Positions 12,126 through 38,099 of a stretch of DNA of 38,217 bases are shown in pieces. How positions within the stretch are numbered: position 1 is the stretch's first letter; each line of letters opens with the position of its first letter. Below the pieces are notes generated by a model that was given only the letters and a program-made list of their open reading frames with translations, was not told the DNA's origin and ran no database searches. Location: the IMG/VR virus record IMGVR_UViG_3300010151_000042, positions 1 to 38,217 of that record, one strand, 5' to 3'. A program made the translations under genes and the position numbers. The stretch is from a virus.

Positions 12126-12139
12126 AAGGAGAACTAAAA

Positions 12140-13355: not shown

Positions 13356-13363
13356 GAGGATTT

Positions 13364-14277: not shown

Positions 14278-14286
14278 CAACTGATT

Positions 14287-14320
14287 GCCCCTAAGTTTAA
14301 TTATATGTAAATTTAGGGGC
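14287..14320 (+). terminator. Strong intercistronic hairpin
   Basis: GCCCCTAAGTTTA (14287-14299) pairs with TAAATTTAGGGGC (14308-14320) over 13 bp with one G-U pair and an 8-nt loop. No T-run follows the hairpin, so it may serve as an RNA-processing or stability element rather than a complete intrinsic terminator. It ends 18 nt before the nuclease start. Confidence 0.5.
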
Positions 14321-14338
14321 ATCACAATGGGAGGAAAG

Positions 14339-15082: not shown

Positions 15083-15083
15083 T

Positions 15084-16079: not shown

Positions 16080-16080
16080 A

Positions 16081-16353: not shown

Positions 16354-16369
16354 AAAGGAGATTGATTAA

Positions 16370-16960: not shown

Positions 16961-17266
16961 CATACCGCATCCTAATAAAGAGAGAGTTTGTTTCAATTTC
17001 CTGAAAGGGATTAAAAATCAACCTTGTTGATAGGTTGTTCTCTCTCTTTTAAAATTAGGCTGGACAAATTGGTTGTTGTAGATAAAATTTACCCGAGATT
17101 ATTTTACAAAATACAAAACGTCTAGCCTAAAAATTTTGGGGATAAAGTGCTTGAAAAATTAATAATAACATAGTATGTGATTGAGGTTTTTCTAAAGGTC
17201 TGGCAAATGAAATAGGATCGGCTCAGGAGAAAGCTGCCTGATCCCTTAATTAAAAAGGAGTAAAAA
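16961..17266 (+). ncRNA. Structured non-coding region after the SSB gene
   Basis: These 306 nt contain no supportable ORF but three strong long-range stems. AAAGAGAGAG (16977-16986) pairs with CTCTCTCTTT (17040-17049) around smaller hairpins such as ATCAA/TTGAT (17017-17031). TTAGGCTGGAC (17055-17065) pairs with GTCTAGCCTAA (17120-17130) over 11 bp with one G-U pair. GGATC...GATCC (17215-17243) encloses CAGG/CCTG near the 3' end. No clean U-tract follows the last stem. It may be a small RNA, or a leader controlling the gene at 17267. Confidence 0.5.
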
Positions 17267-17467
17267 ATGTTTAAACATTATTGGGAATCAATGTTGGAAA
17301 ATACAGCGCCATTTATGCTTGCATGGGAAGCGTATGTATTATTTATGTTGTTATTTTTTATAAGTATTGCTTATAGACTTAATAGAGTTGAAAATAAAAT
17401 AGATAAAATGGTTGAAGAATATTCAGATTTATTAGAATATATATATGAAGAAGAAGAAAAAAAATGA
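17267..17467 (+). CDS. Small membrane-anchored coiled-coil protein
   Basis: This 66-aa protein starts after AAAAAGGAG. A hydrophobic segment (PFMLAWEAYVLFMLLFFISIAY, about 15-36) is followed by a charged helical region (RLNRVENKIDKMVEEYSDLLEYI) with coiled-coil spacing and an acidic Glu-rich end. This is a one-pass inner-membrane protein with a cytoplasmic coiled coil. Its function is unknown. Confidence 0.65.
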   Translation: MFKHYWESMLENTAPFMLAWEAYVLFMLLFFISIAYRLNRVENKIDKMVEEYSDLLEYIYEEEEKK

Positions 17468-17470
17468 CCT

Positions 17471-17728
17471 ATGAGACTAACACCTAGAAAAATAAAAAAT
17501 CTTACTATAAAAGCCTTAAAAAACAAGCCAGAATGGAAACCACCGCCAGGGTATAAATATTTAAAAGACTTAGAACCTGGATCTCTATTTCAGGTAGGGA
17601 CTACAAGGGGAATATTAATTGAATGTGATATAAATGCCAGAGTTATAATAACAGAAACAGTAGAAGATGATAAAACATTACTTGGTAAAAAACTCATCTC
17701 TGCACAGACCGAAGTAAAGGAGTTATAA
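17471..17728 (+). CDS. Small protein, unknown
   Basis: This 85-aa basic protein begins MRLTPRKIKNLTIKALKN and has a beta-like core, LEPGSLFQVGTTRGILIECD, that looks like a small barrel or SH3-like strand set. The ribosome-binding site is weak, so expression may depend on coupling with the preceding gene, which ends 3 nt upstream. No family was recognised. Confidence 0.6.
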   Translation: MRLTPRKIKNLTIKALKNKPEWKPPPGYKYLKDLEPGSLFQVGTTRGILIECDINARVIITETVEDDKTLLGKKLISAQTEVKEL

Positions 17729-17953
17729 ATGCCTACACCTTTTATGTGTCATGAATGTGACAAACCTACAATGAATAAAGATGGATTATGTGATGATTGT
17801 AAAAATCCAACAATGAACGTTAAATGGGTTTCTCCGAGAGACCCAGGAGATGAAAATGATACAATGCAATTAGATGAAAAATTAGTATATGAAGATCAAT
17901 TTAAAGGGAAAAGTAAAAATCCTTTATTTATGTGGTTAAAGAAGAATGGGTAA
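17729..17953 (+). CDS. Small zinc-ribbon protein
   Basis: This 74-aa protein has four cysteines as two CxxC pairs (Cys7/Cys10 and Cys21/Cys24), in MCHECDKP and LCDDCKNP. It is a treble-clef or zinc-ribbon fold for protein or nucleic-acid contacts. The rest is acidic and probably flexible, ending in NPLFMWLKKNG. A good AAAGGAG site precedes it. Its specific role is unknown. Confidence 0.7.
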   Translation: MPTPFMCHECDKPTMNKDGLCDDCKNPTMNVKWVSPRDPGDENDTMQLDEKLVYEDQFKGKSKNPLFMWLKKNG

Positions 17954-18140
17954 ATCAGCAGTAGCTCAAGATAAAAGACCAGCTATGGCATTTGATAAAA
18001 GAAAAGAAGTAAGAATTATAATTAACGCTCTTGAAACTTATAGAAATGAATATGCTGTCGAAAGCATAGATTACACAGTTGATATTGAAGAACTTGTAAA
18101 GGAATTTGAAAAAGTATATAAGTTGTTTGATAAAAACTGA
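17946..18140 (+). CDS. Small helical protein, unknown
   Basis: This 64-aa protein overlaps the zinc-ribbon gene by 8 nt and was probably made by coupled translation. It begins MGKSAVAQDKRPAMAFDKRKE and continues as two amphipathic helices with an acidic/basic pattern (IIINALETYRNEYAVES, IEELVKEFEKVYKLFD). No family was recognised. Confidence 0.6.
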   Translation: MGKSAVAQDKRPAMAFDKRKEVRIIINALETYRNEYAVESIDYTVDIEELVKEFEKVYKLFDKN

Positions 18141-18178
18141 AAATAAAACGGAAGCAGTTGCTTCTAAAGGAGTAACAA

Positions 18179-18373
18179 ATGCCAATAACAAAAAAACAGT
18201 GGTTAGATCAAACTATAATGTTTGATGAATGGGGAAGACCGCCCTCACTAGCAGATGTTCCATTAACATATGGTCCTCGTAAAAAGGCTTTTAAGTTAAA
18301 AGGATATTCTACAAAGGAAATTAATACAATTTGGGAGGAAACCAAAAATGGGAAAAATGAAAATAATATCTAA
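18179..18373 (+). CDS. Small protein, unknown
   Basis: This 64-aa protein has AAAGGAG before the ATG. It contains ITKKQWLDQTIMFDEWGRPPS and a C-terminal YSTKEINTIWEETKN helix. No cysteine pair, membrane segment or named motif is visible. Its end overlaps the start of the next gene by 26 nt. Confidence 0.6.
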   Translation: MPITKKQWLDQTIMFDEWGRPPSLADVPLTYGPRKKAFKLKGYSTKEINTIWEETKNGKNENNI

Positions 18374-18575
18374 ATTATGTGAAGAGGAAGATAGAAATGG
18401 CTTAATTCAATTATTAAATAAAACAGATTTAAAAAATAAAGTTTGGGGATTGACTAATAAAACAATAGAAGAAGTTGCTGATGGTTTTATTGATGCTCAC
18501 AAGAAAATGAGAGATAGAAAAAATGATCCAGCTTATAGAAAGTTAAATGAAATACATGACAAGTACAAAAAATGA
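18348..18575 (+). CDS. Small helical protein, unknown
   Basis: This 75-aa charged helical protein has a GGGAGG site located within the 3' end of the preceding gene. Residues 12-30 (EEEDRNGLIQLLNKTDLKN) and 40-58 form likely helices. No family was recognised. It ends in an ATGA overlap with the next gene. Confidence 0.6.
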   Translation: MGKMKIISKLCEEEDRNGLIQLLNKTDLKNKVWGLTNKTIEEVADGFIDAHKKMRDRKNDPAYRKLNEIHDKYKK

Positions 18576-18853
18576 CAAGTTATACTGAAACAATATTAGA
18601 ATTAGAATCATTTTTAGATAGATACCAAAAAGCACTTGAAGAAATAGCATCATCAAGTAATCAAGCAAATCCTATTAAACTAAAAGAGATAGCTAGGGTA
18701 GCTCTTGACGGAGAACCCACTACTGCTGATAAGTTTAATGAAATACAAGATTATGGACCTCCTTATTCTATGGCTAACCCAACTGGTGAACCTATTAAAG
18801 ATAGTCCTTTAGGGGCTGGTTTTGCTCATAAAGATATAAAGAATAAAAAATGA
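18572..18853 (+). CDS. Small protein, unknown
   Basis: This 93-aa protein has a helical N-terminal half (ETILELESFLDRYQKALEEIA) and a Pro/Gly-rich, probably flexible C-terminal half (YGPPYSMANPTGEPIKDSPL). Both ends overlap neighbouring genes by 4 nt, so it belongs to a translationally coupled run. No family was recognised. Confidence 0.6.
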   Translation: MTSYTETILELESFLDRYQKALEEIASSSNQANPIKLKEIARVALDGEPTTADKFNEIQDYGPPYSMANPTGEPIKDSPLGAGFAHKDIKNKK

Positions 18854-19233
18854 TATGTCCTTGCTGTGGATACACATCTGATACAAAATATAATCCAAGC
18901 AAGAAAATAAGAGAATTAAGGGGAAGGAGATCAAAGCATACTAAAGGATTAATAAGAAGGGTTGTTAACCTCATACAGACTAACATACTAAGTGATAATG
19001 AATTAATAAGAGAATACTATTTTTGGCAGTCAATATCAAAAGTGCCAGATGATGTAGTGAATTGGTCTATAGAAAGATATTTAGAAAGCAAAAAACCATT
19101 ATTTGATGGTAAAGGTTTTAAATATTTGACTAAGATAATATTGAATCATCAAAAAGATAGAGGCACTATAAGTAAAAATGAACGTCTACGGCATGGTAAA
19201 CCACCAGCTGTAGTAAAAACAAAGGAGTATTGA
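18850..19233 (+). CDS. Cysteine-containing helical protein, unknown
   Basis: This 127-aa basic protein begins MICPCCGYTSDTK, with cysteines at 3, 5 and 6 that could be half of a zinc site. The central part (about 46-100: LSDNELIREYYFWQSISKVP, then a helix and KYLTKIILNHQKDRG) is helical. Its position near the DnaB helicase leaves open a replication accessory or loader-like role, but I see no helicase-loader motif. The TGA overlaps the next ATG by one base. Confidence 0.6.
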   Translation: MICPCCGYTSDTKYNPSKKIRELRGRRSKHTKGLIRRVVNLIQTNILSDNELIREYYFWQSISKVPDDVVNWSIERYLESKKPLFDGKGFKYLTKIILNHQKDRGTISKNERLRHGKPPAVVKTKEY

Positions 19234-20018
19234 TGTTAGAATCAACACTATTTCCAATAAAAGAAGTGCCTGTTATGTATGATGTAGTAAGAACATCTAC
19301 TGGTAAGATACATGATGTTAAAACAGGTTATAAACTAATAGTAAGAGAAGATAATGATAAAGTGCTTAGCTGTATGACAGATGAATATCAAGTAGTGACA
19401 AATAAGGAATTAGTAGATACAGCAGTGCCAATTTTAGAAAAACATAAAGCAGAACTAAAAGAAGCCGTGTCATTAGCCGATGGTCAGAAGACAATATATA
19501 AATGGATAATACCAGGTATTAAAATAAAAGTAGCTGAAGGAGATGAATTAAATCCTGAGATTATAATGAAAAATAGTTATGATGGAACTTTACAAGTACA
19601 CATATTGGCAGGTGCTTTTAGAATAGTATGTAGTAATGGATTAATAATAGGTGTCAAATTTGGACAGAACAATTTCAAACATAGCGTTAACAATGTAAAT
19701 CTTAAAAATCTTAATGAACAAATTGAAAAAACAATAGACCATACAAGTAATATGGCAGAAGGCTTTGAGATACTTTCCGATACAGAAATGAATGAAAGAG
19801 ATATTTTCAAACTAGTTAAACTCTTCCCAAGTCAGATGTCTGAATTTCTTGTGCAATATTTAATTGCTCATAAACCAAAGACATATTGGGATTTGCTCAA
19901 TTGCGGAACATATTTAGCTTCTCATAGAATGAAGAGACATTATCAGTCTACTCATAAATTAGAATCTGAACTATTTAGTAGTGTTTCCAAATGGGCAGAA
20001 AATGCAGCCAAAGCCTAA
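19233..20018 (+). CDS. DUF932-family protein
   Basis: This 261-aa protein starts at ATG 19233 behind AAAGGAG; a TTG directly before it is less likely. It has the features of the DUF932 phage/plasmid-like family: an N-terminal region with DEYQVVTNKELVDTAVPIL (about 51-69), a central strand set, and the signature AFRIVCSNGLIIG, followed by HSVNNVN and a long helical C-terminal half. The family is widespread in phages and plasmids. Its biochemical role is not established, though links to replication or anti-restriction have been suggested. A strong hairpin follows the stop. Confidence 0.8.
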   Translation: MLESTLFPIKEVPVMYDVVRTSTGKIHDVKTGYKLIVREDNDKVLSCMTDEYQVVTNKELVDTAVPILEKHKAELKEAVSLADGQKTIYKWIIPGIKIKVAEGDELNPEIIMKNSYDGTLQVHILAGAFRIVCSNGLIIGVKFGQNNFKHSVNNVNLKNLNEQIEKTIDHTSNMAEGFEILSDTEMNERDIFKLVKLFPSQMSEFLVQYLIAHKPKTYWDLLNCGTYLASHRMKRHYQSTHKLESELFSSVSKWAENAAKA

Positions 20019-20028
20019 ATTAAGCCTC

Positions 20029-20095
20029 GGGGGGCAGCTAAGTATTCTATACGCTCTTTTGAATACTCACAACTACACACAGCTGCCCTCCTTTT
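20029..20095 (+). terminator. Long two-tier hairpin, probable terminator
   Basis: GGGGGGCAGCT (20029-20039) pairs with AGCTGCCCTCC (20081-20091) over 11 bp with one G-U pair, and AGTATTC (20041-20047) pairs with GAATACT (20061-20067) inside it. TTTT (20092-20095) follows. The strong G/C base and short T-run fit intrinsic termination after the DUF932 gene, possibly partial. The structure ends 14 nt before the methylase start, so it could also control methylase translation. Confidence 0.55.
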
Positions 20096-20108
20096 ATAAG
20101 GGGGAAAA

Positions 20109-20930
20109 ATGAATATTGATTGCCCAACTATTATACCTTATATGGGAGGAAAATTTGAATTAAGTAAAAAACTAATACCTATGATACCAAAACATACAAG
20201 ATATATAGAAATGTTTTTTGGCGGAGGAAGTATGTTTTTTAGAAAAGCTAAAGCAGATTTCAATATATTAAATGATAAACATAATGATCTAATAAATCTC
20301 TATTTAACAGTCATGAATCAGTATGAACAGTTTCAAAAAGAATGTAATTCACTATTAAAATCCAGATACTTTTACACAGAGTTCAAGCAATACTTGAAGT
20401 CAGAAATAGAATATGAAAATATGCCAAATGCCTACAGAGCAAGTAGATATTACTATGTTATAATGAATGCCTTTAATCACACATTTTATAATCCTATAGC
20501 AAAAGAGAAAAATAGTTGGAATGATGATAAGTGGAAGAATTTGATAGAAAGTAAAAAGAAACTTGAAGATACCATGATAGAAAACTTAGATTTCAGAGAG
20601 TTATTTGATAGGTATCCTACGAAAAAAGATGATTTTTGGTACTTTGACCCACCATATGTTGTAGCTGGAGAAAGGGGAGATTATTACTTTCATGCGTTAG
20701 ACAATAAAGATCATGAAGATATGGCAAATATCGCACAGAAAATAGATGATGATGGAGGGAAATTTATGATTTCATATGATGACCATACATTAATACATAA
20801 ACTATATAACAATTATAAAATAAAGAAAATACCTATAAGATACAGCGGTCAATTAGTTGGAGATGACTATAAAAATGAATTGGTCATAACAAATTATGAA
20901 CCAATAAACCAACAACTCACTCTTATATAA
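20109..20930 (+). CDS. Dam-type DNA adenine N6-methyltransferase
   Basis: This 273-aa enzyme belongs to the D12 (alpha) class of adenine methylases. PYMGGKFELSKKL (10-22) and EMFFGGGSMFF (34-44) form the S-adenosylmethionine pocket, NILNDKHNDLINLY (53-66) carries the acidic ribose-binding turn, and FDPPYVV (179-185) holds the DPPY catalytic motif. It would methylate adenine in a short target, often GATC, to protect phage DNA from host restriction or to time replication. The target cannot be read directly. It starts after AAGGGGG and is followed 9 nt later by the helicase gene. Confidence 0.92.
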   Translation: MNIDCPTIIPYMGGKFELSKKLIPMIPKHTRYIEMFFGGGSMFFRKAKADFNILNDKHNDLINLYLTVMNQYEQFQKECNSLLKSRYFYTEFKQYLKSEIEYENMPNAYRASRYYYVIMNAFNHTFYNPIAKEKNSWNDDKWKNLIESKKKLEDTMIENLDFRELFDRYPTKKDDFWYFDPPYVVAGERGDYYFHALDNKDHEDMANIAQKIDDDGGKFMISYDDHTLIHKLYNNYKIKKIPIRYSGQLVGDDYKNELVITNYEPINQQLTLI

Positions 20931-20939
20931 GGAGAGCAA

Positions 20940-22331
20940 ATGAACGATAGAATAATGCCTCATTCAGAAGAAGCTGAAGAAGCAGTTCTTGGAGCCATTC
21001 TTGTAGATGGTTCAAAGGCTTTTGAAAGGGCTAATGCGTGGATAAGAGATGATGATGCGTTTTACTACAGTAAAAATAAAATACTTTATTCAATTATATC
21101 TGATATGCATAGAGAAGGAAAAGATATTGATATGGTAACCGTTGCTGATAGAGTAAGAGATTTAAAGAAAGAAAATTCACGATCTGGTCTTGATATCTAT
21201 TATATAACTGGATTACCAGAAAAAATACCAACTACTTCAAATATAGAAAGCTATTCAAAAATTGTATGGGAAAAATTCATAAAAAGACAAACAATAAAAT
21301 CAGCTCACAATTTATATAATACAGGATTTGACAGCAAGGATAAAGCAGTAGAAGACTTATTACATAGCCATCAGAAATTATTAACTGAATTACTAGAAAT
21401 AGCACCAAGTAGAAAAAGAGAAATTAATTCTGTAATCAATGAAACTATAGATACTTTAAAAACTGGCAAGAATATTATAAAATTTGGATACCCAGCATTA
21501 GATAATATAGCAGGAGGGATGACAAGAAAGGAAATAACAGTAATAGGCGGCAGACCTGGACATGGTAAGACGACACTAACTATCAATATTATCTACAGCT
21601 TATTGAAGCAAGGGTACAGAGTAATGATGTTTAACAGAGAAATGAGCAATATAGAGGTTATTAAGAAATTTATGATTATGGAAAGCAAAGATTTGTTATA
21701 TGAACATCTAAGAACTGGGAATATTGAAGAAGGAAGAATACAAGCAATAGAAATGATGGCTGGTGGATTGAAAAATACACTAAGCAATTTAATTATGTAT
21801 GATGATATCAAAAATCTTAATGATGCCATGAGAGAAATACAAAGAGAAAAACCAGATATTGTAGTTGATGATTATATACAGTTAATTAAAACAGAAGGTA
21901 GAAACAGTAAAGATAGAAGATTTGAAATTGAAGATATATTACTTGAATATAAATGGGTATGCAAAAAAGAAGATTGCTCTGCAATATTAGTATCTCAGTT
22001 AAATAGGGAAATAGAAAAGAGAATAGAACCAAGACCAAGATTAGCAGACTTTGCAGAAAGCGGAACGATAGAGCAAACAGCAGAAACCGCTTTACTTGTA
22101 TTCTATGGACATAATTTTAATGATGAACAATTTGATAAACATGAAATAGAAGTCATATGTGATAAAGCTAGATATGGCAAGGTAGGAACTTATGTAATGG
22201 GTTTTAATGGCAATAAATGTAAATTCTATTCAAATGCTGATGATGCCAGGAATGAACTAATTGATTTCAATAAAAATAAAACCAAGATTAGTCCAGATAG
22301 AGCAATGTCAAATGTGCGGGCGGACTTTTAG
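20940..22331 (+). CDS. dnaB: DnaB-like replicative helicase
   Basis: This 463-aa hexameric helicase unwinds the phage replication fork. The N-terminal DnaB domain starts with MPHSEEAEEAVLGAIL (6-21), typical for the family. The RecA-like motor has Walker A GRPGHGKTT (204-212), FNREMS (231-236) as the motif 1a region, Walker B DIVVDDYIQ (306-314), and a later Q-S-type motif, ILVSQLNREIEKR. The length is normal for DnaB. No separate primase was found in the window. It lies downstream of the methylase with AAGGAGAG before the ATG. Its 3' end overlaps a small zinc-finger gene in another frame. Confidence 0.95.
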   Translation: MNDRIMPHSEEAEEAVLGAILVDGSKAFERANAWIRDDDAFYYSKNKILYSIISDMHREGKDIDMVTVADRVRDLKKENSRSGLDIYYITGLPEKIPTTSNIESYSKIVWEKFIKRQTIKSAHNLYNTGFDSKDKAVEDLLHSHQKLLTELLEIAPSRKREINSVINETIDTLKTGKNIIKFGYPALDNIAGGMTRKEITVIGGRPGHGKTTLTINIIYSLLKQGYRVMMFNREMSNIEVIKKFMIMESKDLLYEHLRTGNIEEGRIQAIEMMAGGLKNTLSNLIMYDDIKNLNDAMREIQREKPDIVVDDYIQLIKTEGRNSKDRRFEIEDILLEYKWVCKKEDCSAILVSQLNREIEKRIEPRPRLADFAESGTIEQTAETALLVFYGHNFNDEQFDKHEIEVICDKARYGKVGTYVMGFNGNKCKFYSNADDARNELIDFNKNKTKISPDRAMSNVRADF

Positions 22332-22503
22332 TAGCAATACAAATTATGAATTAATATCAAAATACAGTAACACCACATTATATATATGCAAAAAATGTGC
22401 TATAAGGGAATATTATGGAACTAAAGCAAAGACTGGTAAAAGGTGGAAATCTGACCAAGAAAAAAACAGATTATTCGGAGAACCAATTAATAATAGGGAT
22501 TGA
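22261..22503 (+). CDS. Small zinc-finger protein overlapping helicase and resolvase
   Basis: This 80-aa frame contains CQMC (16-19) and CKKC, a four-cysteine finger with a spacer of about 23 residues, then a basic KRWKSDQEKNRLFG tail. The first CxxC requires a start upstream of it. The available one is TTG at 22261, which lies inside the last 71 nt of dnaB and has an AGGA about 10 nt upstream. Its end overlaps the resolvase gene by 89 nt. The complete zinc finger argues that it is real. Its role is unknown; nucleic-acid binding is likely. Confidence 0.6.
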   Translation: MISIKIKPRLVQIEQCQMCGRTFSSNTNYELISKYSNTTLYICKKCAIREYYGTKAKTGKRWKSDQEKNRLFGEPINNRD

Positions 22504-22957
22504 CCCAGGTAAGTCTGGAGGAATAGCTTGGATAGTAAAAGATGACTTAGGCAATGCAGCAGAAATATTAGCAGAAAATTGTCCAGCTGAAATAGATGAT
22601 ATGTCATGTCTAATAAAAAATATAACTAAAGATATAAAAAGTATTTGCTATTTAGAATCAGTCCATGCGTTCCCAACAGACGCAAGAAGTTCGGCTTTCA
22701 AGTTTGGAATGAATTTTGGGATATGGCAAGGTATACTAAGTTCATTCAATGTTGAAGTCGTTTTAGTTACACCAAGAAAATGGCAACGTCATTTTGGTGA
22801 GTTGCCTAAAATTAAGAAAGAGAGAAAGAATAAGATGAAACAGATCGCAACTGAACTGAGTGGATTAAAAGCCACACTAAAAACATCTGATGCAATATTA
22901 TTAACTATATATGGGTATTCAATGGATATGGGTGGAAAATGGAAAATCCAAAAGTAA
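22415..22957 (+). CDS. RuvC-like Holliday junction resolvase
   Basis: This 180-aa protein has the RNase H-fold resolvase motifs: LIIGIDPGKSGGIAW (25-39, Asp30), YLESVHAF (79-86, Glu81), a VTPRKWQRHFG substrate loop (118-128), and TSDAILLTIYGY (157-168, Asp159). It cuts branched DNA made by recombination and replication so that it can be packaged. The start at 22415 has an AAGGGAAT site and overlaps the zinc-finger gene. It closes the recombination set that begins with the Fe-S nuclease. Confidence 0.88.
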   Translation: MELKQRLVKGGNLTKKKTDYSENQLIIGIDPGKSGGIAWIVKDDLGNAAEILAENCPAEIDDMSCLIKNITKDIKSICYLESVHAFPTDARSSAFKFGMNFGIWQGILSSFNVEVVLVTPRKWQRHFGELPKIKKERKNKMKQIATELSGLKATLKTSDAILLTIYGYSMDMGGKWKIQK

Positions 22958-27066: not shown

Positions 27067-30000
27067 TTAACAACCTATTTTATCTTTAGCATTAGAAGTA
27101 TTTTCCCTTCTTTTATCCATAGTGTCTTCTACTTCTTCTAGCATTTGAAAATATCCACCAGGTTTGCGAAGTTTTTTCCTCATTTCTCTGGCTTCAAGGG
27201 CTGGAGCATCGACCTTATTATTTGCTATAGCCCATCTAATATGATTTTCATATGCTGGTAAAAATATCTTCATTATATCATTATTTAAAAATATTTTAGG
27301 CAATAATTTATTTACATAAACAGTTGAGCCTGATGTTTTACCGCTTAAATACTTTAATGTAATCCACATTTTAGCATCATTATCTAAAGTTTGATATTTA
27401 TCTATAAATCTATCAATAAATTCAGCAAAAGCAAGATTTTTATCAGATTGTATTGCTTCTTTATCCTTAGTGTGTTCCATTAAACCATTCCAAATATTGA
27501 TAAGACTCATATTCGATGGTTTTGTTATGTTTAAAAGTTCACCCAATTTAGTGCTTCCATTTTCCAATACTTCAGTTTGAGCATATAAAAAATCTTCTGC
27601 CTTGCTATAAGAGTCAAGTTTACTAGAGTCGCTAAGCATATCATACATATAATCTTCTATAATCTCACTACCCATTATTGCTTGGACAGCTGCTACATGA
27701 GAATTTTTTAAAAGGTTTTCACTTTGGAATGCATTTATTAAATCATAATCAAGATTAATACCAGCGCCTATCAACAAACTTTCCATTGGGCTTATATTAT
27801 TTTCTAAATTAATTATAAAATCATCTATGCCTCTGTAACCTGACCAGCTAGCTTTTTTATTAGCAATTTCATTTCTGATTTTCTTTGTAAATGCAAGTGA
27901 ATATTGAGCATCCGTTAATTTACCCTTTACTTTAGGCTGTTTAAGTTCATTCTCAGTTAATTTTTCATCCCCATTAAACATTGAATTTAGTTCTCTGCTC
28001 ATTGCTAGATTAATATCAAGATTGGCAGAGATTCTAGTTCTAGTTCTACCATGTCTTTGAGAGCTAAAATTTTGCACTCCTTTTACTATACCTAAAGTTG
28101 TCAATTCTTCATTTGTAAAATCTATACTAATTGGACTACCAGCTACTGTTTTATCAAAAATTCTAGAATTTATAAAATTACTGATGCTCATAGGTTTACC
28201 TAGTTCATCCTTCAAGTTTTCTAAAATTGTTGCTAAATGAGTGAATTTTGACCCATCAACAGCCATCTGGAATAGTATAACAAGTTCATGAGCTTTAGTT
28301 GTTTTTAAGAATATAGGAATTTTTGAATTTTTAGCTTTATTAAAATCAATTACATTCCCATCTTTGTCAACTAAAGTATCTCCATTAGCTTTTAAAATTT
28401 CGATTTCATTATCATTTAACATTGATTTATCTACTACAATATAATCCATTATAACTTCAGCATTAGGGTCAGCGGCTTTAATTGTAATAGGTGTTACATT
28501 ACCAGAATCATCTGTTGATTCAATATCCATAGTAAAATTCTTGCTAAACAATTCAGCCATTATTGTTCTAGCATTCATAACTACACCAGTTGCTCCAGTA
28601 TTAGACGCATTTCTCGCTATTTCATCAACACTATCAAATATAGATAAAGCTGTGGAATCAGTTTCATTAGTTTCATCATCAACTCTCGGTCCAAATAAAG
28701 GAAGAGATGCAGTTTTGTCTATATTATTATCTATGCTATATTGTTGCCATTCTTCCATACTGCTGCTGTAATCATCTGGCACAAATTCAAATGCCCCTTT
28801 ATCACCATCCCAGTCACCATCAAAAACTTCCTTAACATCTTTCCATGTCATAAGCATGCTTTGACCATGACCTTCTTCTAATGACTGAACTCTTCTAACA
28901 ACAGGACCAGTAACTTTAGAAATAGGATTTCTATGCATTAATACTTTAACATCATTCTGTTCCAAAAATGGATTTAACCATGTTTTTATAAGTTCATGTT
29001 TAGTAAGTCTTGTAGCCATTATTCTGTCATACAATTCTTCACTAATAGATTCTTTCCATTTCTTTTTAACTTGATTAAAAGCAACCTTATTATCAGATGC
29101 TAAAATTACATGACCTTCTTTTACGTGCTGATTGGGATGCTCAGAACTGTTAAAAGATGGTTTTATATACAAAATAGAAGATGAACCATCCCAGGCTCTA
29201 CTTTTATTTAAACCATCTCTAATTAAAATAGAGTTAACAACAGGGAGAAGATGGGTTCTTATAGATGGATGCCATATACCTTCTCCATCGTTTCCTATAT
29301 CTTCTAAATATTGTTCAAGTTCACTTGGTATTTTACCATCATCCCTAGCTCTTATAACAAAATCTCTGAATTTTTTAGGGTCTTTATAAAAGCCATTTAT
29401 CTTATCTGTATAATATTTTACAACATCATAATATCTTGTTCTTATAGATTTTAAAACATTATCAGAATATGTATTGCCATATCCAAGCATTAACATCAAC
29501 TCGCCAAGAGCAATTGGGTGAGATGCTGAATTTTTACTCTTCTCCTGTACGTTATTTATTACAATAGATGATGATGGTATTGTATGAATAACTCCATAGC
29601 CAGATTTATAATCTCCAAGATTCCCGCCAAAAGCTTTGACTTTTTGCTCAGAACTTGCAAAACCTCCAAATGTCATTTTAGCCTCATTAGAAGATGCAAC
29701 CATATCAAATTTTTGACTAGAATTAATTTCTTTCCAATAAGTTAATTTTGTTGTTGAATTTGTTTCCATAGTTGCTACAACATTACCATCAGAATCTTTT
29801 AAAACCATATTTTTAAAACCAGCAAATTGCATATGTTTCATACCAAGATAATCAGTCTCTCCAGTATCTTTATTTAAAGCTCTATGTCTAATAAATGTTT
29901 TTATCTGTTGGAATTTTGTATATCCTATATCATCAGCCATCAACTTTAAATATTCTGTCCCAGTAATTGATGCCCCATCAAATAAATCATATGGTATTTC

Positions 30001-33000
30001 CTCAGTTGGCTCCATTTGGGGGCTTCCATCTCTATTTTTTACAACATTACCATTTGCATCCCTCACTGGTATCATTCCGCTAACTGTATAATCTTTTGGT
30101 ACTATCATTAACTTCATGTCTCTTAATTCAACTGGTCTTTGACCCTCAGCCATATCAATACTAAGTCTAATCATAGTATCTGATGCACTTTTTTCATACA
30201 TAAAATAATCTGGTGTTCTAACAGCCTGCCAAAATCTGAGGTTATGAAGAGATGCTGATAGAGATGTTTTCTTTTCAAGAACTTCGACTAGTCCTTTAAT
30301 TTCAGTTATCAAATCACTTAATTTCCCATTTGGATTATCATTTACCCAGTTGTCTATATAATCAGATAATGTAGAATTAATAATATCATCATCCATTGCC
30401 ATTAATTCATCAAGATTTGATTCATCAACCATAATATCATAATGTTCTTGCCTTATATTCCCAATCCTCAATTCTTCATCTATAGCCATCTTAAACATCA
30501 TTGGAGTCATTTGATGAGGGTTAATATTTTCAACAACACTTCCTATAACAGCCGAATTGTCACCAAACTTTGTTCCATTGATAACTAATAGTTTAGCATT
30601 TGTATCCATTAACTCTTGTTTTAAGGACTCTTTTATTTCTTCTACAGGGACACCGTTTTCATGTTTTTTCTTAGCACTATTTAAACTTGCATTTAATTGA
30701 CCAATAAGTTTATCTACATATCTACCATCATTTTCATCCTGCATTTTATCAAGTTCATCTTTGGTCAAATTGACAGAAGCTTCTTTATACCATTCAGAAT
30801 TATCTTTTCTGTTAAATGCTCTATCAATGATTTGTTTCATTGGTAAAATACCTAAACGAATTTTATGTTTATTATTTTGATGATCTCTTTCTATCGAATT
30901 TCTCATTACAGAATCTGGGAAGAGCTTATTATTGACCCTGTCAAGTTCATCTGCTATTTCCAATCCCATAGTTCTATTATTGCCTTTTAAGACTGTCCTT
31001 GTGTCTAAATCATAATTTCTTATGATACGAAAATTCAGCCTAGCATCTTTCCCCTGTCTGTTTTTATTAGTAGGACTAAATCTATAATTTCTCTGTCTTA
31101 ATTTTGTCCATTCTCGCCTAATAAGTCTTATATCATTATCTGTTAAATCTTCTCTTCGCTTAAATGATTCGTCTTGCGCCCATTTTCTATCAGCAACAAT
31201 TTCTTCAAGAAGTTCATATACATCATTAAGATACTCATCAAAAGTTTTATGTTTTTTTAATACAATATCAACCATTCTAGGATAATCACCAGATTTACGC
31301 AAATAGATTCCAAATTTTTCATTCCAAAAAGAATGATAAGCATCTTCGCTAGAAATAGTATTAGTTTGATTTAGTGATTCACCACCAGTTGCTTCATGTT
31401 CTTCTCCACTTGCTGTATCTGTATCATTTTCATTACTATCTTGATTGGGGTCTTTACTCATGAACTCTTCAAATGGGATCGTAATAGCTGGCGTCACACC
31501 AAGCCATCTACCTTGATAAAACTCTTCAGCAATAAATTCCATAATCTCTTGCTTAGTTTTTGGTTCAACATGGAACATTCTTTTAACCCTAGCAACAAAT
31601 TGCTTTAACCACTTTTCAAATCTTAACCTTAATGATCTAGGTCTGTTCTTCATTCTATCTACAAAATACTCACCCATAGCCTTAACAAGTGCTTCTTCAG
31701 ATTCAAATAACTTTATACCTCGTTTAACAATATCTTGATCTCTAAACATTTTAATATAAATATGAGCATATTCATGAGGTATAGTATCAATTCTACCATC
31801 TGTTGTTGACCACATAACTAAAGCCTCAGTTGCCATACCAATTCTTTCTATACCATATTTTATGATCAATCCCTCAACAGCTGCTTGTTCAATATCTGGG
31901 AAAAACTTTTTTAATCTCGCAGCTATCCTTGCTGTAAATTCTGGATGATCTTTTATATAAGGAAGATTGCTATCACCTAAATCCTGGAAATTCTCATCAG
32001 TCCCTTTAGGCTTTCTTTTGCCCTCTACTGTATCTCTAGTTTTTTGACTACTATCAGCCTTTCTTTTATTCCTCGCTTCTCTTCTTTTTTGTCTATCTGT
32101 TATTTTTTTCTCAGGTTTAGATACGTTTTCATCACTTACTGTAGTATCTGCTTTTACTTTCTTTCTCGCAGCTATAGCCGCCTTTAAGGCTGCAGCATCC
32201 CCAGCTCCAGCAGTCTCTTTAGGAACAGCAGCTGCTAATTGCGCTCTAATTTGGTTAGCTTCATCTGTATCAGTCCATTCTTGTTCTTTAGCTGTCATAT
32301 CGTCAAGAGCTACCTTGCCAAGAACTATATCCATTTTGCGCTGAGTTGATATACCTGTAATAGGGGCTGCAGTAGGTTCTTCAGCTGTTTCTGGAGGAAC
32401 CTCTGCTTTGGCTTTAGCTTTTACTTCTGCTTTACCATGCTTTTCAATTAAATCTCTACCAATTTTAAGCAACATTACTTGAGCTTGAGCTTTAACTATT
32501 TTAACAGGACTAGAATCCATTTCAATAAATAGTTCAAGACTATTTAATTCTTCTTCAGTTAATTTGACTTCTTTTCCATCTACAACTGCTATCTGTTCTT
32601 CTCTACTTTTTGCAGTTGGGAACTGTACTCTATCCATAGGCTCAAGATACTTATCAAGTTGTTCTTTGGCTGCGGGTTTAGCCTGTCTTAATGCTAATTC
32701 ATCAGTTACTCTTTTAATTTCTTTATCTATAGATTCTGTTGAACCCTTACCTTTCGCCTGTATGTTAGCAACAATATTTTTTCTTTGAGTTTGCAACTCG
32801 GAATATTTATTTTCCAATTGGACATCAGTTAATTTTGCAAATCTGCCTGTCCGAGGTCGTAACGGGGCTTTGGGGGTAACTGCAGGTGTAGAAGGAGTTG
32901 TTTTTACTTCATTTAAAACCTTATATGCACTAATTGCTTGGGCAATAAATGCCTTTTGAACATCATCTGGGGCTTCATTATATTCTTTTTCAAGAAAGGC

Positions 33001-35016
33001 AATAGGGTCTTTTTTATATTCCTCTAATAATTTTGGTTGTTGAGATATTGCATTTATATAATTATCTAAATCTTTTTTAGCTTTTTCTATATCTTTAGGA
33101 ACTGGAGTTTCTACTTTCTCTTTTAATAATGTTTCTATTTCAGCACTTTTACCTTGTCTTATAGTCTCTTCATTTTTTGTTAGTTTTTTACCAGCTTCTA
33201 TTTTATTTGCTATATGCTGAAGGACTCCTTGAGGTACAGTGCCATCTGCAACAAAATCTTTCATTACCTTAGCGGTTATTTTCTTGGGAATTACTGGTTT
33301 AATAGGAATTTCTTTCCCTCCAACCCTTACAGCTACATCTTTACCTGGTGGAATCTCAGTATCTCCTATGGCAGGTTTACCAGTTTTATCAAATGGTAAA
33401 GTATCTTCATATTCTGGTTTAACTCCTAATTCAATATCATCCTGTGAAGGTTCTCCGAGTCCTTGCTCAACAATTTTCCCTTTTTGAATAAGACCATACT
33501 CTGCATAATTTTTTAATAAATCAATTTTATCTTCTAATTTACCCTGAGGATCAACTCCCTTCATTTTAGCTGGGATTTTTTCGGAGTCAATTATTGATTT
33601 AACCATTTCAGAGGTTAGCATATCCCCAAATTCAGAATTAGCTATTTCATCTACTAAGTTTTTATCACTTCCCACTATCATTAAAAGTTTTTTACCAATA
33701 CCAGTTGTTGTTTGGTCAGCTTTTAAAATCCTTTTTAATACAGGGTCTTTAGTACCCTCTTCTATACTTTCAATAAAATCTGAAACTTTAGTTGGATCAT
33801 CACCAGTGATTGCTGAAATATATTGAGAAACAACACCAGTTGGGGATACTGGACCTTCTGGGGGAACTTCTTTTTTAAGGTCTTCAACTGGAGTCCCGAC
33901 AACTTCACCTCTTTCTTCCCTAATGGTTTCAGCAATTTCCTCAGATGTTACCTTACCTGCTTGTGTACGAGTACCAACACCAAATGGAAGACCTAATATA
34001 CCAGTTGTAGCACCTGCAAAACCTTCTTCCCATACTGCTTTCTCATCCCAAGTTTCAACGAATGCCTTCTGAAGAGCAACTTTAGCAGTATAATCATCCT
34101 CACCTAAACCAAGCTCTAAAGCCTTATTAATGGTATTTTGAGTGTATGCCTGCATAGTCTCAGTTACACCCTCAGTTAAAGCACCTTCAAGTGTTTTAGC
34201 TATACCAGCAGAACCCCTTAAACCAGCCCTTGTTATCTTAGATGAATTAACACCAGCATCAACAATTCTCTGAGCCAATGTTCTCTTTAAAATTTGTTCA
34301 CCAGGTTCCCTAAGACCAACTAATCCTAAGAAATGTTTAGCACCTATCCTTTCTAAAAGAGTGGAAATGCTACCATAAGCAAGAGATGTTATACCAGCAT
34401 ATCCTCTAGCTTCCTCTGGATCAAGACCTACATCATCAACAAGAGTTGACATAGCTTCATTAAACTGAGCACCAGCTTCCATAGCAAATATTGGAGCCAT
34501 AGTAGCAGTTGTCATCATAAGAGAACTTCCGCCAGTTACAGTCGCAAGCCCAATACCTGCAGCAGTTCCAACAATATTAATAGCTAAAGATGGTAAAGCT
34601 TCTGATAATGATCTAGAAGCTGTATGTAAATTAGTCCATCCAGGTTCATCTTCTTTCCATGCCGTTAGTGCTTGCAGTTCAACATTGTCTGCTATTTTTT
34701 GCCTATACAGATTACGATTGTACATACGAAAGTTTTCATATGCTTCAGTTTCTGTCCATGGCATCATTCCATACAGACCAACTTTTGTTTCTTCAAGCTG
34801 AGTCTCTAACTGATGGGAAACTCTGTCCATGAACCCAGGCACCTCTTGCGCCCCATAAGCCCTATAGGAAGCAGCACCTGGGGTTTCGCCTGGTACATTT
34901 AAATCTGGGATTTGTTGTCTTATAAGTAAATAAAGTTTCTCATCAGTCCATCCCTCAAAAAGTTCTGGATTAGATGCCCTTATATCATCTATTACTGTTT
35001 GCCTGTCTAGTGGCAT
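27067..35016 (-). CDS. Giant multidomain virion protein, candidate RNA polymerase (2649 aa)
   Basis: This protein begins with a short helical region, then a Gly/Ala-rich hydrophobic stretch (139-180) suited to membrane insertion, a long charged low-complexity region (about 350-1000), and a metallopeptidase motif, HEYAH (1081-1085). Residues about 1780-2150 resemble the two catalytic barrels of multisubunit-type RNA polymerases. Lys1794 and Lys1804 lie in KAFGGNLGDYKSGYGVI, followed by IVIN and HPIALGELM (1833-1841), as in the beta-subunit lysine barrel. VKEGHVILAS (1965-1974), MHRNP (2027-2031) and FDGDWDGDKG (2065-2074) follow the beta-prime RxP...DxDGD order. Asp2068, Asp2070 and Asp2072 would bind magnesium. 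The neighbouring genes suggest injection with the DNA. The polymerase call rests on motif order and spacing and needs structural confirmation. Confidence 0.65.
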   Translation of the reverse strand: MPLDRQTVIDDIRASNPELFEGWTDEKLYLLIRQQIPDLNVPGETPGAASYRAYGAQEVPGFMDRVSHQLETQLEETKVGLYGMMPWTETEAYENFRMYNRNLYRQKIADNVELQALTAWKEDEPGWTNLHTASRSLSEALPSLAINIVGTAAGIGLATVTGGSSLMMTTATMAPIFAMEAGAQFNEAMSTLVDDVGLDPEEARGYAGITSLAYGSISTLLERIGAKHFLGLVGLREPGEQILKRTLAQRIVDAGVNSSKITRAGLRGSAGIAKTLEGALTEGVTETMQAYTQNTINKALELGLGEDDYTAKVALQKAFVETWDEKAVWEEGFAGATTGILGLPFGVGTRTQAGKVTSEEIAETIREERGEVVGTPVEDLKKEVPPEGPVSPTGVVSQYISAITGDDPTKVSDFIESIEEGTKDPVLKRILKADQTTTGIGKKLLMIVGSDKNLVDEIANSEFGDMLTSEMVKSIIDSEKIPAKMKGVDPQGKLEDKIDLLKNYAEYGLIQKGKIVEQGLGEPSQDDIELGVKPEYEDTLPFDKTGKPAIGDTEIPPGKDVAVRVGGKEIPIKPVIPKKITAKVMKDFVADGTVPQGVLQHIANKIEAGKKLTKNEETIRQGKSAEIETLLKEKVETPVPKDIEKAKKDLDNYINAISQQPKLLEEYKKDPIAFLEKEYNEAPDDVQKAFIAQAISAYKVLNEVKTTPSTPAVTPKAPLRPRTGRFAKLTDVQLENKYSELQTQRKNIVANIQAKGKGSTESIDKEIKRVTDELALRQAKPAAKEQLDKYLEPMDRVQFPTAKSREEQIAVVDGKEVKLTEEELNSLELFIEMDSSPVKIVKAQAQVMLLKIGRDLIEKHGKAEVKAKAKAEVPPETAEEPTAAPITGISTQRKMDIVLGKVALDDMTAKEQEWTDTDEANQIRAQLAAAVPKETAGAGDAAALKAAIAARKKVKADTTVSDENVSKPEKKITDRQKRREARNKRKADSSQKTRDTVEGKRKPKGTDENFQDLGDSNLPYIKDHPEFTARIAARLKKFFPDIEQAAVEGLIIKYGIERIGMATEALVMWSTTDGRIDTIPHEYAHIYIKMFRDQDIVKRGIKLFESEEALVKAMGEYFVDRMKNRPRSLRLRFEKWLKQFVARVKRMFHVEPKTKQEIMEFIAEEFYQGRWLGVTPAITIPFEEFMSKDPNQDSNENDTDTASGEEHEATGGESLNQTNTISSEDAYHSFWNEKFGIYLRKSGDYPRMVDIVLKKHKTFDEYLNDVYELLEEIVADRKWAQDESFKRREDLTDNDIRLIRREWTKLRQRNYRFSPTNKNRQGKDARLNFRIIRNYDLDTRTVLKGNNRTMGLEIADELDRVNNKLFPDSVMRNSIERDHQNNKHKIRLGILPMKQIIDRAFNRKDNSEWYKEASVNLTKDELDKMQDENDGRYVDKLIGQLNASLNSAKKKHENGVPVEEIKESLKQELMDTNAKLLVINGTKFGDNSAVIGSVVENINPHQMTPMMFKMAIDEELRIGNIRQEHYDIMVDESNLDELMAMDDDIINSTLSDYIDNWVNDNPNGKLSDLITEIKGLVEVLEKKTSLSASLHNLRFWQAVRTPDYFMYEKSASDTMIRLSIDMAEGQRPVELRDMKLMIVPKDYTVSGMIPVRDANGNVVKNRDGSPQMEPTEEIPYDLFDGASITGTEYLKLMADDIGYTKFQQIKTFIRHRALNKDTGETDYLGMKHMQFAGFKNMVLKDSDGNVVATMETNSTTKLTYWKEINSSQKFDMVASSNEAKMTFGGFASSEQKVKAFGGNLGDYKSGYGVIHTIPSSSIVINNVQEKSKNSASHPIALGELMLMLGYGNTYSDNVLKSIRTRYYDVVKYYTDKINGFYKDPKKFRDFVIRARDDGKIPSELEQYLEDIGNDGEGIWHPSIRTHLLPVVNSILIRDGLNKSRAWDGSSSILYIKPSFNSSEHPNQHVKEGHVILASDNKVAFNQVKKKWKESISEELYDRIMATRLTKHELIKTWLNPFLEQNDVKVLMHRNPISKVTGPVVRRVQSLEEGHGQSMLMTWKDVKEVFDGDWDGDKGAFEFVPDDYSSSMEEWQQYSIDNNIDKTASLPLFGPRVDDETNETDSTALSIFDSVDEIARNASNTGATGVVMNARTIMAELFSKNFTMDIESTDDSGNVTPITIKAADPNAEVIMDYIVVDKSMLNDNEIEILKANGDTLVDKDGNVIDFNKAKNSKIPIFLKTTKAHELVILFQMAVDGSKFTHLATILENLKDELGKPMSISNFINSRIFDKTVAGSPISIDFTNEELTTLGIVKGVQNFSSQRHGRTRTRISANLDINLAMSRELNSMFNGDEKLTENELKQPKVKGKLTDAQYSLAFTKKIRNEIANKKASWSGYRGIDDFIINLENNISPMESLLIGAGINLDYDLINAFQSENLLKNSHVAAVQAIMGSEIIEDYMYDMLSDSSKLDSYSKAEDFLYAQTEVLENGSTKLGELLNITKPSNMSLINIWNGLMEHTKDKEAIQSDKNLAFAEFIDRFIDKYQTLDNDAKMWITLKYLSGKTSGSTVYVNKLLPKIFLNNDIMKIFLPAYENHIRWAIANNKVDAPALEAREMRKKLRKPGGYFQMLEEVEDTMDKRRENTSNAKDKIGC

Positions 35017-35807
35017 TATTCTGGGATTGTACTAATAAAGCCTTTTAAAAGTTCATCTGCTTCAGTTTTTACACGAGGATCAAGCTCTTCAATGCCTTCT
35101 AAATACTGACCTTTATTTATTTTCCTGTATTCGGTTTCCATTTCAGCCAAGCTGAATAAAACACTTTCATTTTTAGATTTAAGTGAACTCATTCTATTTT
35201 CCAATCCATAAGGATCAACTGCCCCAACACCACGACTACCAAAAACTGGATAAGGTCTATCACCATATGTAACTTCTTCTAGCATTCTTTGCTTATCTCT
35301 GTTCTTCATTAAATTTTGATATAGAGAACCTTCTTTATTAAGAATATGACCTTCTGGGAATAAATTTGATGCAGCACGTAAATATTTACCCCATGTACCT
35401 ACATTTAAATAAGGGAAATTTGATTTTCCAAAACTATATCCCTCAACTTCTCCACTTTCATATATATCCCACTCTTTCTGCATTTCAGCTTCTTCTGATT
35501 TAAGTTTTTTTAAAGTATCCTCACGCCTTCCAAATTCAGTTTCCATTTTTTTATATTCATCAGTACTACCAGTGTATTTTCTTCTTAAAGATTTAATATC
35601 AGATGCAAGCTTTTTTAATTTACCTGGGGATGATTTACCTTTATAATATTTTTTAAAAGCTTCCTCAGTTTTTTTAGTAGCTTTTGGTTTTTCATCTTCA
35701 CCAGCCAATTTCTGAACCTCCTGCTCTGCTTCTTCTCTAGTGTAGAAACCAGTATCAACAAGATAAGTTATTTTTTCTTCTTTTATAGCTTCAGTTTTTT
35801 TACTCAT
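35016..35807 (-). CDS. Coiled-coil virion-operon protein, unknown
   Basis: This 263-aa highly charged protein is tightly linked to its neighbours, with an ATGA-type overlap upstream and a TAATG overlap with the 2649-aa gene. The first half is Lys/Glu-rich and predicted coiled coil (about 45-110). The middle contains a more ordered segment with YSFGKSNFPYLNVGTWGKYL (about 123-142). It could be an assembly chaperone or minor internal virion protein for the giant proteins. No family was recognised. Confidence 0.65.
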   Translation of the reverse strand: MSKKTEAIKEEKITYLVDTGFYTREEAEQEVQKLAGEDEKPKATKKTEEAFKKYYKGKSSPGKLKKLASDIKSLRRKYTGSTDEYKKMETEFGRREDTLKKLKSEEAEMQKEWDIYESGEVEGYSFGKSNFPYLNVGTWGKYLRAASNLFPEGHILNKEGSLYQNLMKNRDKQRMLEEVTYGDRPYPVFGSRGVGAVDPYGLENRMSSLKSKNESVLFSLAEMETEYRKINKGQYLEGIEELDPRVKTEADELLKGFISTIPE

Positions 35808-37537
35808 TTCTTTTTAATCTCATAAATATATTTTAAAGACATACCTGATATTTCCTTCCTATCTTCATCTGTAAGATCACCTTTATACTCTTTAAAAAAC
35901 TTAATAGTTGCTTCTTTCCTGGCTTTCCCTTTTAGACCCTTTACTGCATCGGCTAGTCCTTCAGCCCCGAGGTCTAATCTGCTTAGTCGAGTCTGTTTAA
36001 CTACCTCAGCTGAGAATTCCTTGTTTTTGATTGCATCTGCTATTCTTGCTCTTCTCATTGACTCTTTCTTTTGAAGAGGATTATTTAACTCAGCTTCTAT
36101 CACATTTCCAACATAAAGAAAAAATTCATAACTTGTAACATCAGATACTTTACCTGTGTCTTCCTTCTTTGCACCAAATCTTTGAATTGTTTTTGATGGG
36201 CTAAATGCTTCTGCTAAAGCTTTTCTCGAATCATCAACAAGTTCTCTATTTATTGTACCAGTAAGATCGCCAAATTTGTGAAATGGCAATGGCTTACCTA
36301 CGTTTTCACCTTTCTTTGCCGTATATGGCACTACAGCAGTTCCGTCTTTAAGACCAATATTCCAAACAAACTGGTCACCAACTTTTCTTATAAGACCAGC
36401 AAGGTAATATTTTTTACCTTCATCATCTAAACCAGCCATATCTCCGTATATTTTTTTGCCAGCTTTACTCTCTGAATCAAATAATTTTAAAAACCCACTA
36501 ATATCTCTATCTAATGCATTATACCACAACTGAGGACTATATGTACCCTTCTTGGTTAATGATGATATGGTTGAATTTGCTATATCAAACTCCCTAGCAG
36601 GAATTAAATCTTTAATTTTTTCGTAACTCTGAAATATCTTTGCTCGTTCATTCTCAGCCTCAGTTCGTAATTCTGCATTAAGAGCTTCAAGTTGAGCAGT
36701 TAAACCCGCATCAATAGTTTTTCTATCTTCTTTTTGAGCCAATTGCCCACCAGTCAAAACATTCCAAGCACTAGTTATATCACCAGCTTCAAGATGACCC
36801 TGAGCTGCCTCAACCATTTCTCTTTCAGATGGTCCAACATCACCATCTTCCTTAAATTGAACCCATGGGTCTCCAGCCTCTTCGCCTATATCATATTTCG
36901 CCAATGTTCTCTTAACATATTCTCTCCTAGATGCCTCATCCATAAGTAATCCAAGTGCTTTAACTTTTGCATCTTTTTCTTCAAGTACATATCCATCTTG
37001 AAGATTTTTAGCATTAGTTATTATTTCATCGCTAGCATCATATTTATTTGCAAATATTCCGCTTTCTAAGTCTTCTCTATGCAACTCATTTAAGGATTTC
37101 AATATACCAGCATACTCATGTTTATTTAGAACCGAATTAAGAAGTGTTTTATATGAAGATTTAATTACATCAGCTTGCAATTGAAAATCTGGGTCTTTAA
37201 AATCTGGATGAGTTGCTTTATATTTATCTATTTCTGCTATATGCTTATTAGCTACTTCTATAGCCTTTTCTTTTGAAATCGTTGTATCTGATATTTCATG
37301 TAATGCAATATTACTTAATGATTCTAAAACCGCAGTAACTTTCTGAAAAGATTGATCATAAATAGCTCTTTCTTCCGAACTCTCTCTAATTTCATCTCCT
37401 CTTAATTTACGTTTTTCGTCTGAAAGATCAGTTAATTGATCATATATCTTACTATGTCTATATCGTTCTGAAAATGTATCATCAGAATCCGCTTCAGGGG
37501 CGAATTGCGCAAGACCTGAAAAAAATCCACTAGCCAT
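35804..37537 (-). CDS. Internal-virion-like protein (577 aa), unknown
   Basis: I start the gene at ATG 37537, behind AAGGAGTG, giving 577 aa; a longer frame from 37576 runs further into the upstream gene and lacks support. After a short MASGFFSGLAQFAP start, the protein is mostly helical and acidic with many Lys and Glu, including regions about 35-210 and 270-330. It has no signal peptide or catalytic motif. Size, composition and position before the giant genes suggest an internal virion or ejection protein. It overlaps the upstream gene by 8 nt and the downstream gene by 4 nt. Confidence 0.7.
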   Translation of the reverse strand: MASGFFSGLAQFAPEADSDDTFSERYRHSKIYDQLTDLSDEKRKLRGDEIRESSEERAIYDQSFQKVTAVLESLSNIALHEISDTTISKEKAIEVANKHIAEIDKYKATHPDFKDPDFQLQADVIKSSYKTLLNSVLNKHEYAGILKSLNELHREDLESGIFANKYDASDEIITNAKNLQDGYVLEEKDAKVKALGLLMDEASRREYVKRTLAKYDIGEEAGDPWVQFKEDGDVGPSEREMVEAAQGHLEAGDITSAWNVLTGGQLAQKEDRKTIDAGLTAQLEALNAELRTEAENERAKIFQSYEKIKDLIPAREFDIANSTISSLTKKGTYSPQLWYNALDRDISGFLKLFDSESKAGKKIYGDMAGLDDEGKKYYLAGLIRKVGDQFVWNIGLKDGTAVVPYTAKKGENVGKPLPFHKFGDLTGTINRELVDDSRKALAEAFSPSKTIQRFGAKKEDTGKVSDVTSYEFFLYVGNVIEAELNNPLQKKESMRRARIADAIKNKEFSAEVVKQTRLSRLDLGAEGLADAVKGLKGKARKEATIKFFKEYKGDLTDEDRKEISGMSLKYIYEIKKK

Positions 37538-38099
37538 ACAAATCACTCCTTCCAGATATTTGCTGGTTGCTTCCAAACATCCCTTCCCAGAATGTATCTG
37601 GAATTTGTCCTATTTCTGCTATTCTAGCATTAAATCTTTCATTAATACCAGCTAAACTTCTTTCTCTTGCTATATCTATACCAGTAATTGTACCTGTATA
37701 CTGATCTCCTAGTTTATCTAATGCATATTTATTTTGACCTCTTGTAGATGCATATGCTTCACTTGTGACAGCTTCAATTTCTCCAATATTGGCAATACCA
37801 CCAGTTTGTTTAATTAAAGAACCTTTTTCACGAAAGGTTTTCATTAAAGATTCTCTTGCTCCTAGATTTACAGCTTGAGTTTCTCTCAACATATTTTGAG
37901 TAGCTAAACTAAACTGGCTTTCAGTTTCTCTTCTTAATAATGCTTCTTGGTCAGCTTTAATTTTCTCAGCCGCTGATGCTGCTTTTTTAGTATCTGCGCC
38001 AGCTTGACTAGCTGACCAGCCTCTGCCTAAGGCACCAACTGCCTTTGCCCCCATTCCAAGTAATGTAGCTCCTGCTGCTAATGTTGCTAAAACAGGCAT
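37530..38099 (-). CDS. Small internal-virion-like protein (gp14-type layout)
   Basis: This 189-aa protein begins with an Ala/Gly-rich hydrophobic segment (MPVLATLAAGATLLGMGAKA), then a long helical Ala/Glu/Lys/Gln region (about 35-90), and ends with DTFWEGMFGSNQQ. This layout is like the small internal core proteins of T7-type podoviruses (gp14), which insert into the outer membrane during ejection. The similarity is in layout and context rather than a diagnostic motif. The start follows AAAGGAAG. Confidence 0.65.
   Translation of the reverse strand: MPVLATLAAGATLLGMGAKAVGALGRGWSASQAGADTKKAASAAEKIKADQEALLRRETESQFSLATQNMLRETQAVNLGARESLMKTFREKGSLIKQTGGIANIGEIEAVTSEAYASTRGQNKYALDKLGDQYTGTITGIDIARERSLAGINERFNARIAEIGQIPDTFWEGMFGSNQQISGRSDLYG

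Follow-up and report, generated by a model that had tools for sequence, protein, structure and literature searches.

A giant protein encoded in the 38,217-nucleotide viral stretch analysed here (the window), which comes from an uncultured marine phage, was found to combine three modules in one chain. Its open reading frame, P0001 (27067..35016, minus strand, as are all parts of the protein given below), encodes 2649 aa and comprises a membrane-type N-terminal module, a zincin peptidase, and a C-terminal two-barrel RNA polymerase. We propose, with a probability of roughly 0.82, that P0001 is a virion-packaged, ejected single-chain two-barrel RNA polymerase for early genes, fused to the membrane and zincin modules; packaging, ejection, catalysis, and the early-gene role are inferred. 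What is unexpected in this polymerase is its phage group and its domain context.

The polymerase region was modelled as residues 1479-2458 (27643..30582) with AlphaFold2, using a 12-sequence alignment and no templates (pLDDT 81.8, pTM 0.78). A Foldseek search of the PDB with this model returned 6vr4 first (E = 7.7e-8), the structure of the crAss-like phage virion RNA polymerase phi14:2 gp66. QDE-1 followed (approximately 1e-7) and bacterial beta-prime came next (approximately 1e-3); the matches to 6vr4 and QDE-1 had a probability of 1.00 across most of the query. The global TM-score to 6vr4, normalised by the query, was only 0.40, a moderate value, as expected for distant multi-domain relatives. 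A second model, made independently for the sister clade described below and of lower confidence (pLDDT 66.9), again placed 6vr4 first (E = 1.9e-7). In a viral structure library, the top matches of the P0001 model were unnamed proteins, followed by crAss RNAP-block proteins. The first-pass annotation had read a two-barrel RNA polymerase from the sequence, and this reading agrees with the template-free model, which matched two-barrel RNA polymerases first. Judging from the models, the assignment of the C-terminal region to the two-double-psi-barrel polymerase fold is close to certain. The two-barrel fold is thus well supported, and active-site metal geometry is not part of the evidence.

The motifs on which that earlier reading was based were all located in P0001: GVIHTIP (residues 1808-1814), IVIN (1818-1821), HPIALGEL (1833-1840), MHRNPI with its RxP element (2029-2031), DWDGD (2068-2072), NTGATGVVMNA (2139-2149), and lysines 1794 and 1804. 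As evidence for a polymerase, the DxDGD motif by itself is only suggestive, because D.DGD arose in 310 of 5000 shuffles of P0001 (6%), and R.P followed after 32-42 residues by D.DGD in 33 of 20000 (0.17%). Ordinary annotation would miss the protein. No relevant match to P0001 was obtained in Pfam, PHROGs, or PDB sequences, the polymerase region had no PDB sequence-profile match, and tblastn with this region gave no match among 50,697 phage records.

Relatives were gathered via the portal protein, with 465 confirmed viral-contig matches, of which the best 80 of 465 were kept. Giant proteins were found with a profile search and with a DNA pattern encoding F[D/E]GDxD[G/A]DK, and they fell into two clades. 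The window's clade consists of 12 proteins including P0001, carries GDWDGDK, GDGDGDK, or GDQDGDK, and has complete members of 2471-3655 aa. R2029, P2031, D2068, D2070, G2071, D2072, K2073, K1706, K1727, and K1780 were invariant in 12/12 aligned members, at identities down to 17%. The first-pass annotation would have been refuted by close homologues lacking the DxDGD aspartates, and every member retained them. The sister clade, found at 15 or more loci in related phages, is very divergent and carries GDYDADK preceded by R[NK]P[RH]TRPND. Its loci include L091, L111, L131, L136, L139, L143, and L152, with proteins of 2827-2980 aa in these named cases. A PDB sequence search with the alignment of this clade gave no match. 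Comparison of the two clade profiles gave a probability of 96 (E = 2.4e-9) with the same order over both barrels, and the reversed control gave a probability of 0.2. Whole-length MAFFT misaligned the two clades; a motif-anchored alignment worked. That this lineage was already present in the survey of viral two-barrel polymerases (supplement of PMC10770324) cannot be excluded.

The invariance over 12 proteins at such low identity, together with the second clade, bears on the possibility that the motif and the fold match are an artefact, with a DxDGD that merely arose by chance in some large tail or ejection protein. The frequency of D.DGD in shuffles would allow this, and bacterial genomes scanned with the motif pattern gave matches only at chance level. 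Two separate models with only polymerases in the PDB ranking, however, argue against it as well, and we regard it as refuted in practice and scarcely credible.

Within the model, the beta-prime-type double-psi barrel (DPBB-A) was inferred at residues ~2024-2078 (28783..28947) from strands, a helix, and Foldseek matches that aligned 150-200 columns with beta-prime and PhiKZ/AR9 RNAP chains. It contains the RxP element (28924..28932), whose R and P are invariant and which precedes the metal-binding motif by the ~35-40 residues expected for the superfamily, and the predicted catalytic DWDGD (28801..28815), which is present in 12/12 members and followed by the invariant K2073. The beta-type barrel (DPBB-B) was inferred at residues ~1704-1822 (29551..29907) from the strand order of the model and from collinearity with the lysine motifs of crAss DPBB-B; the boundaries of both barrels are inferred. 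On the same basis of model strands and collinearity, K1727 (29836..29838) and K1780 (in ASSNEAK; 29677..29679), both invariant in 12/12 members, are inferred to lie in this barrel. A lysine at the place equivalent to K1780 was also found in the DYDAD clade and in crAss virion RNA polymerases (vRNAPs). The paired lysines proposed earlier, K1794 and K1804, are present in P0001 but not conserved; they lie within an insert common only to the closest relatives and were rejected as catalytic residues in favour of K1727 and K1780. GVIHTIP and HPIALGEL were only loosely conserved across the family.

The order of these elements was then compared with crAss-type polymerases. Eight aligned enzymes share, in order, a PxYxKxS-like lysine, an SxxKVG-like lysine, YRxPT, GxDFDIDK, a GxGxxAN helix, and VDxxKDP; the window's clade has K1727, K1780, R2029xP2031, GDWDGDK, GVVMNA (2144-2149), and QMAVDGSK (2250-2257). 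The motif order noted in the first-pass annotation is thus collinear with that of the crAss vRNAPs, and its suggestion that NTGATGVVMNA belongs to the bridge region fits, as these enzymes have GxGxxAN at the same point. A putative bridge helix was accordingly placed at residues 2130-2160 (28537..28629), collinear with the GxGxxAN segment, and QMAVDGSK (28246..28269), in which Q2250 and D2254 are invariant, is collinear with crAss LxAxVDxxKDP and marks a putative trigger-loop region. The profile match to crAss vRNAPs was marginal (hhalign probability 29, E = 5.8e-4; reversed control 0.74). We therefore suggest that P0001 belongs to the crAss-phage/QDE-1 branch mainly on the modelled structure, because the profile match is only suggestive. 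Like P0001, phi14:2 gp66 has both barrels in a single chain and adjoins a large partner protein. It was the closest fold for two models, and its two lysines, RxP, DxDxDK, bridge, and VDxxK motifs are collinear with those of P0001; it differs in having DFDID instead of DWDGD.

Could the fold have been kept for another job, as a replication primase, a QDE-1-like RNA-templated polymerase, or a catalytically dead structural part? The QDE-1 polymerases are eukaryotic, stand-alone enzymes solved with RNA and DNA templates, and they were the second-best structural match to P0001. In addition, the DYDAD clade replaces the glycine of DGD with alanine, and none of the ORFs searched was identified as a DNA polymerase or a separate primase. 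However, crAss enzymes also vary this fourth position (DFDID/DFDVD), no family member has lost any of the metal-binding aspartates, the RxP element, or either lysine, and the best match, 6vr4, is a DNA-dependent transcribing enzyme. We thus consider another function very unlikely and retain the reading of P0001 as a transcribing polymerase.

The remainder of P0001 also pointed to the crAss transcription block, and the membrane segment and protease motif mentioned in the first-pass annotation were recovered there. The N-terminal module (residues 1-540; 33397..35016) is conserved in window-clade homologues and has hydrophobic segments at ~140-160 and 165-185 in hydropathy analysis; its profile match to the RNAP-block protein of crAss phage cr128_1 was weak (E = 0.005; reversed control 0.40). 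The zincin-type peptidase module (residues 1004-1190; 31447..32007) was identified by tblastn and profile matches and contains HEYAH (residues 1081-1085; 31762..31776), with HE[YF][AS]H in 9/9 aligned sequences. Its profile matched a 'putative RNA-polymerase subunit' of cr128_1 (E = 2.2e-4; reversed control 0.097), and its tblastn match to MT835645 (33.9% over 170 aa, 7e-13) was the only significant phage-record match of P0001. The latter record (L109, MT835645.1, from human faeces) is an unannotated 23-kb sequence from a TAG-recoded, crAss-like gut phage. When TAG was read as glutamine, it showed a 4921-aa frame with YRVPTQGQNS...GADFDIDK, a crAss-type polymerase signature, adjoining a 1117-aa frame whose zincin domain is related to that of P0001. 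In cr128_1 the zincin and membrane modules lie in a separate protein, whereas P0001 is one chain. P0001 looks like several domains of the crAss transcription block joined together, and common descent of the non-polymerase modules with that block is likely but not proven.

The head genes of the window phage, in contrast to this block, are not crAss-like. The late genes on the minus strand run through the small terminase, the large terminase (5674..7263; PHROG 38, 5.9e-70), the portal (3430..5649; Pfam P22_portal, 9.4e-48), and the major head protein (960..2498; PHROG 1328, 1.3e-7) and off the contig end at position 1. The P22-type portal reported earlier was confirmed by its Pfam match. None of terminase, portal, and major head protein places the phage in Crassvirales: the nearest kin of the large terminase, among the matches listed, were N4-like and Vibrio phages, the portal matched other phages, and the head protein gave no match. 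P22-type portals were found in all >30-kb contigs of both clades except G053 and G062, with related terminases in the same contigs. One contig (G067, from L147) has a terminase 76% identical to that of the window and a polymerase of the DYDAD clade. The TerL tree placed it among window-clade phages (100/100) and the portal tree with a DYDAD phage (G034), which supports recombination between the terminase and the downstream genes; only this one event is supported, and swapping of polymerase modules was rejected as a reading.

From the other contig end, the late genes are P0005, P0004, P0003, P0001, and P0002, all on the minus strand. P0005 (189 aa; 37530..38099) and P0004 (590 aa; 35804..37576) are candidate ejection proteins by position and size only; P0004 had no sequence match to N4 gp51, and P0005 none to N4 gp52. 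P0003 (263 aa; 35016..35807) has no assigned function, and its adjacency to P0001 is conserved in a relative, G002. Directly downstream of P0001 lies a partner protein of 1266 aa, P0002 (23266..27066), which showed no similarity to phi14:2 gp65 despite its equal position. A shared function of P0001 and P0002 is supported, because P0002 homologues were found with the window's clade alone and, in one relative (G057, L168, contig IMGVR_UViG_3300033153_001737), the polymerase and P0002 homologues form a single 3655-aa ORF. Converging on P0002 is a plus-strand block (12116..22957) of replication-type and small genes, inferred to be early, with a DnaB helicase, a PD-(D/E)XK nuclease, a ParB-like protein, a Dam-type methylase, and a Holliday resolvase. 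A D12-class N6-adenine DNA methyltransferase (Pfam, 1.5e-27) lies at 20109-20930 in this block. A search of the block for a repeated promoter-like motif found nothing convincing. The stretch from the small terminase to this block (8796-12115, ~3.3 kb) has no ORFs other than very short ones, which may be small early genes; a control region is also possible.

From gene content, the window is probably a fragment whose ends (1-11 and 38100-38217) flank a missing block, because in G002 (54,445 bases) the head genes are separated from the P0005 homologue by ~17 kb of additional genes. These include ORFs of 864, 1132, and 1184 aa, which are probably tail genes. G002 is itself probably close to complete, because its contig ends cut a P0004 homologue; the genome size of the lineage is perhaps ~55 kb.

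This gene order resembles the ejection cassette of phage N4 (Schitoviridae), in which a small protein (150 aa) and a ~600-aa protein (644 aa) precede a giant ejected polymerase, gp50, late in the operon. N4 also has a related terminase, and the N-terminus of gp50 is likewise of the membrane type. N4 gp50, however, is a T7-type polymerase, and P0001 was rejected as an enzyme of that type, as profile A3 against gp50 gave a probability of 0.2 with no similarity in the polymerase region. A search for the T7-type RNAP family in the related genomes gave no matches; its control was also silent, and absence is not shown. In gp96 of P23-45, a two-barrel polymerase is likewise embedded in a giant virion protein, the injected tail tape measure, which also has metallopeptidase and membrane domains (PMC10770324). 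P23-45 is a long-tailed phage, and its 5002-aa tape measure carries the polymerase at the N-terminus, whereas it is C-terminal in P0001 and the window phage has podovirus-like head genes; given this placement and a profile probability of 0.1, P0001 was not assigned to the gp96 type. YonO of SPbeta is a single-chain polymerase akin to multi-subunit RNAPs (PMC5467207), and differs from P0001 in being ~100 kDa and unfused.

Packaging, ejection, and early transcription by P0001 are proposed by analogy with gp96, with N4 gp50, which after ejection acts at a membrane-anchored ejectosome (PMC12633501), and with crAss001, which carries RNAP-associated proteins as capsid cargo (PMC10172136). Its virion location is inferred from gene position, because P0004 and P0005 have no match to N4 ejection proteins. 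A two-barrel polymerase may instead be a non-virion enzyme made in the infected cell for middle or late genes, as P23-45, PhiKZ, and AR9 all encode such enzymes (PMC10770324, PMC7598289); proteomics is lacking, and the small neighbours lack similarity to known ejection proteins. Against this, the P0001 gene ends the late structural operon outside the early block, the chain also includes fused hydrophobic and zincin modules such as occur in virion proteins, and its closest fold is a virion enzyme. We consider the non-virion alternative improbable, and packaging together with early transcription quite likely, by inference and without biochemical or virion proteomics data.

As a virion-packaged enzyme, P0001 would share the head with the ejection-type proteins encoded beside it and would pass the tail largely unfolded, ahead of or with the DNA. 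Its N-terminal module may help form or anchor a channel in the cell envelope, and the C-terminal polymerase would refold inside the host cell. D2068, D2070, and D2072 are predicted to bind Mg, whereas K1727 and K1780 would lie at the RNA/NTP. The polymerase would transcribe the first genes while the DNA enters. Whether a widespread uncultured-phage lineage with P22/N4-like head genes fused a crAss-type transcription block into one ejected protein, coupling entry with first transcription, and whether its polymerase diverged to give two or more clades (DxDGD and DxDAD), is a hypothesis on which we are evenly divided.

With these results, the range of virion-type two-barrel polymerases takes in not only crAss-like, jumbo, and Thermus phages but also phages whose head genes are P22/N4-like, in a lineage with many relatives in environmental virus data. 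The two new, deeply divergent clades provide material for relating single-chain polymerases to cellular and RNA-interference enzymes. The fusion also allows a direct test of whether the polymerase is attached to the DNA-entry channel, transcribing during DNA entry.
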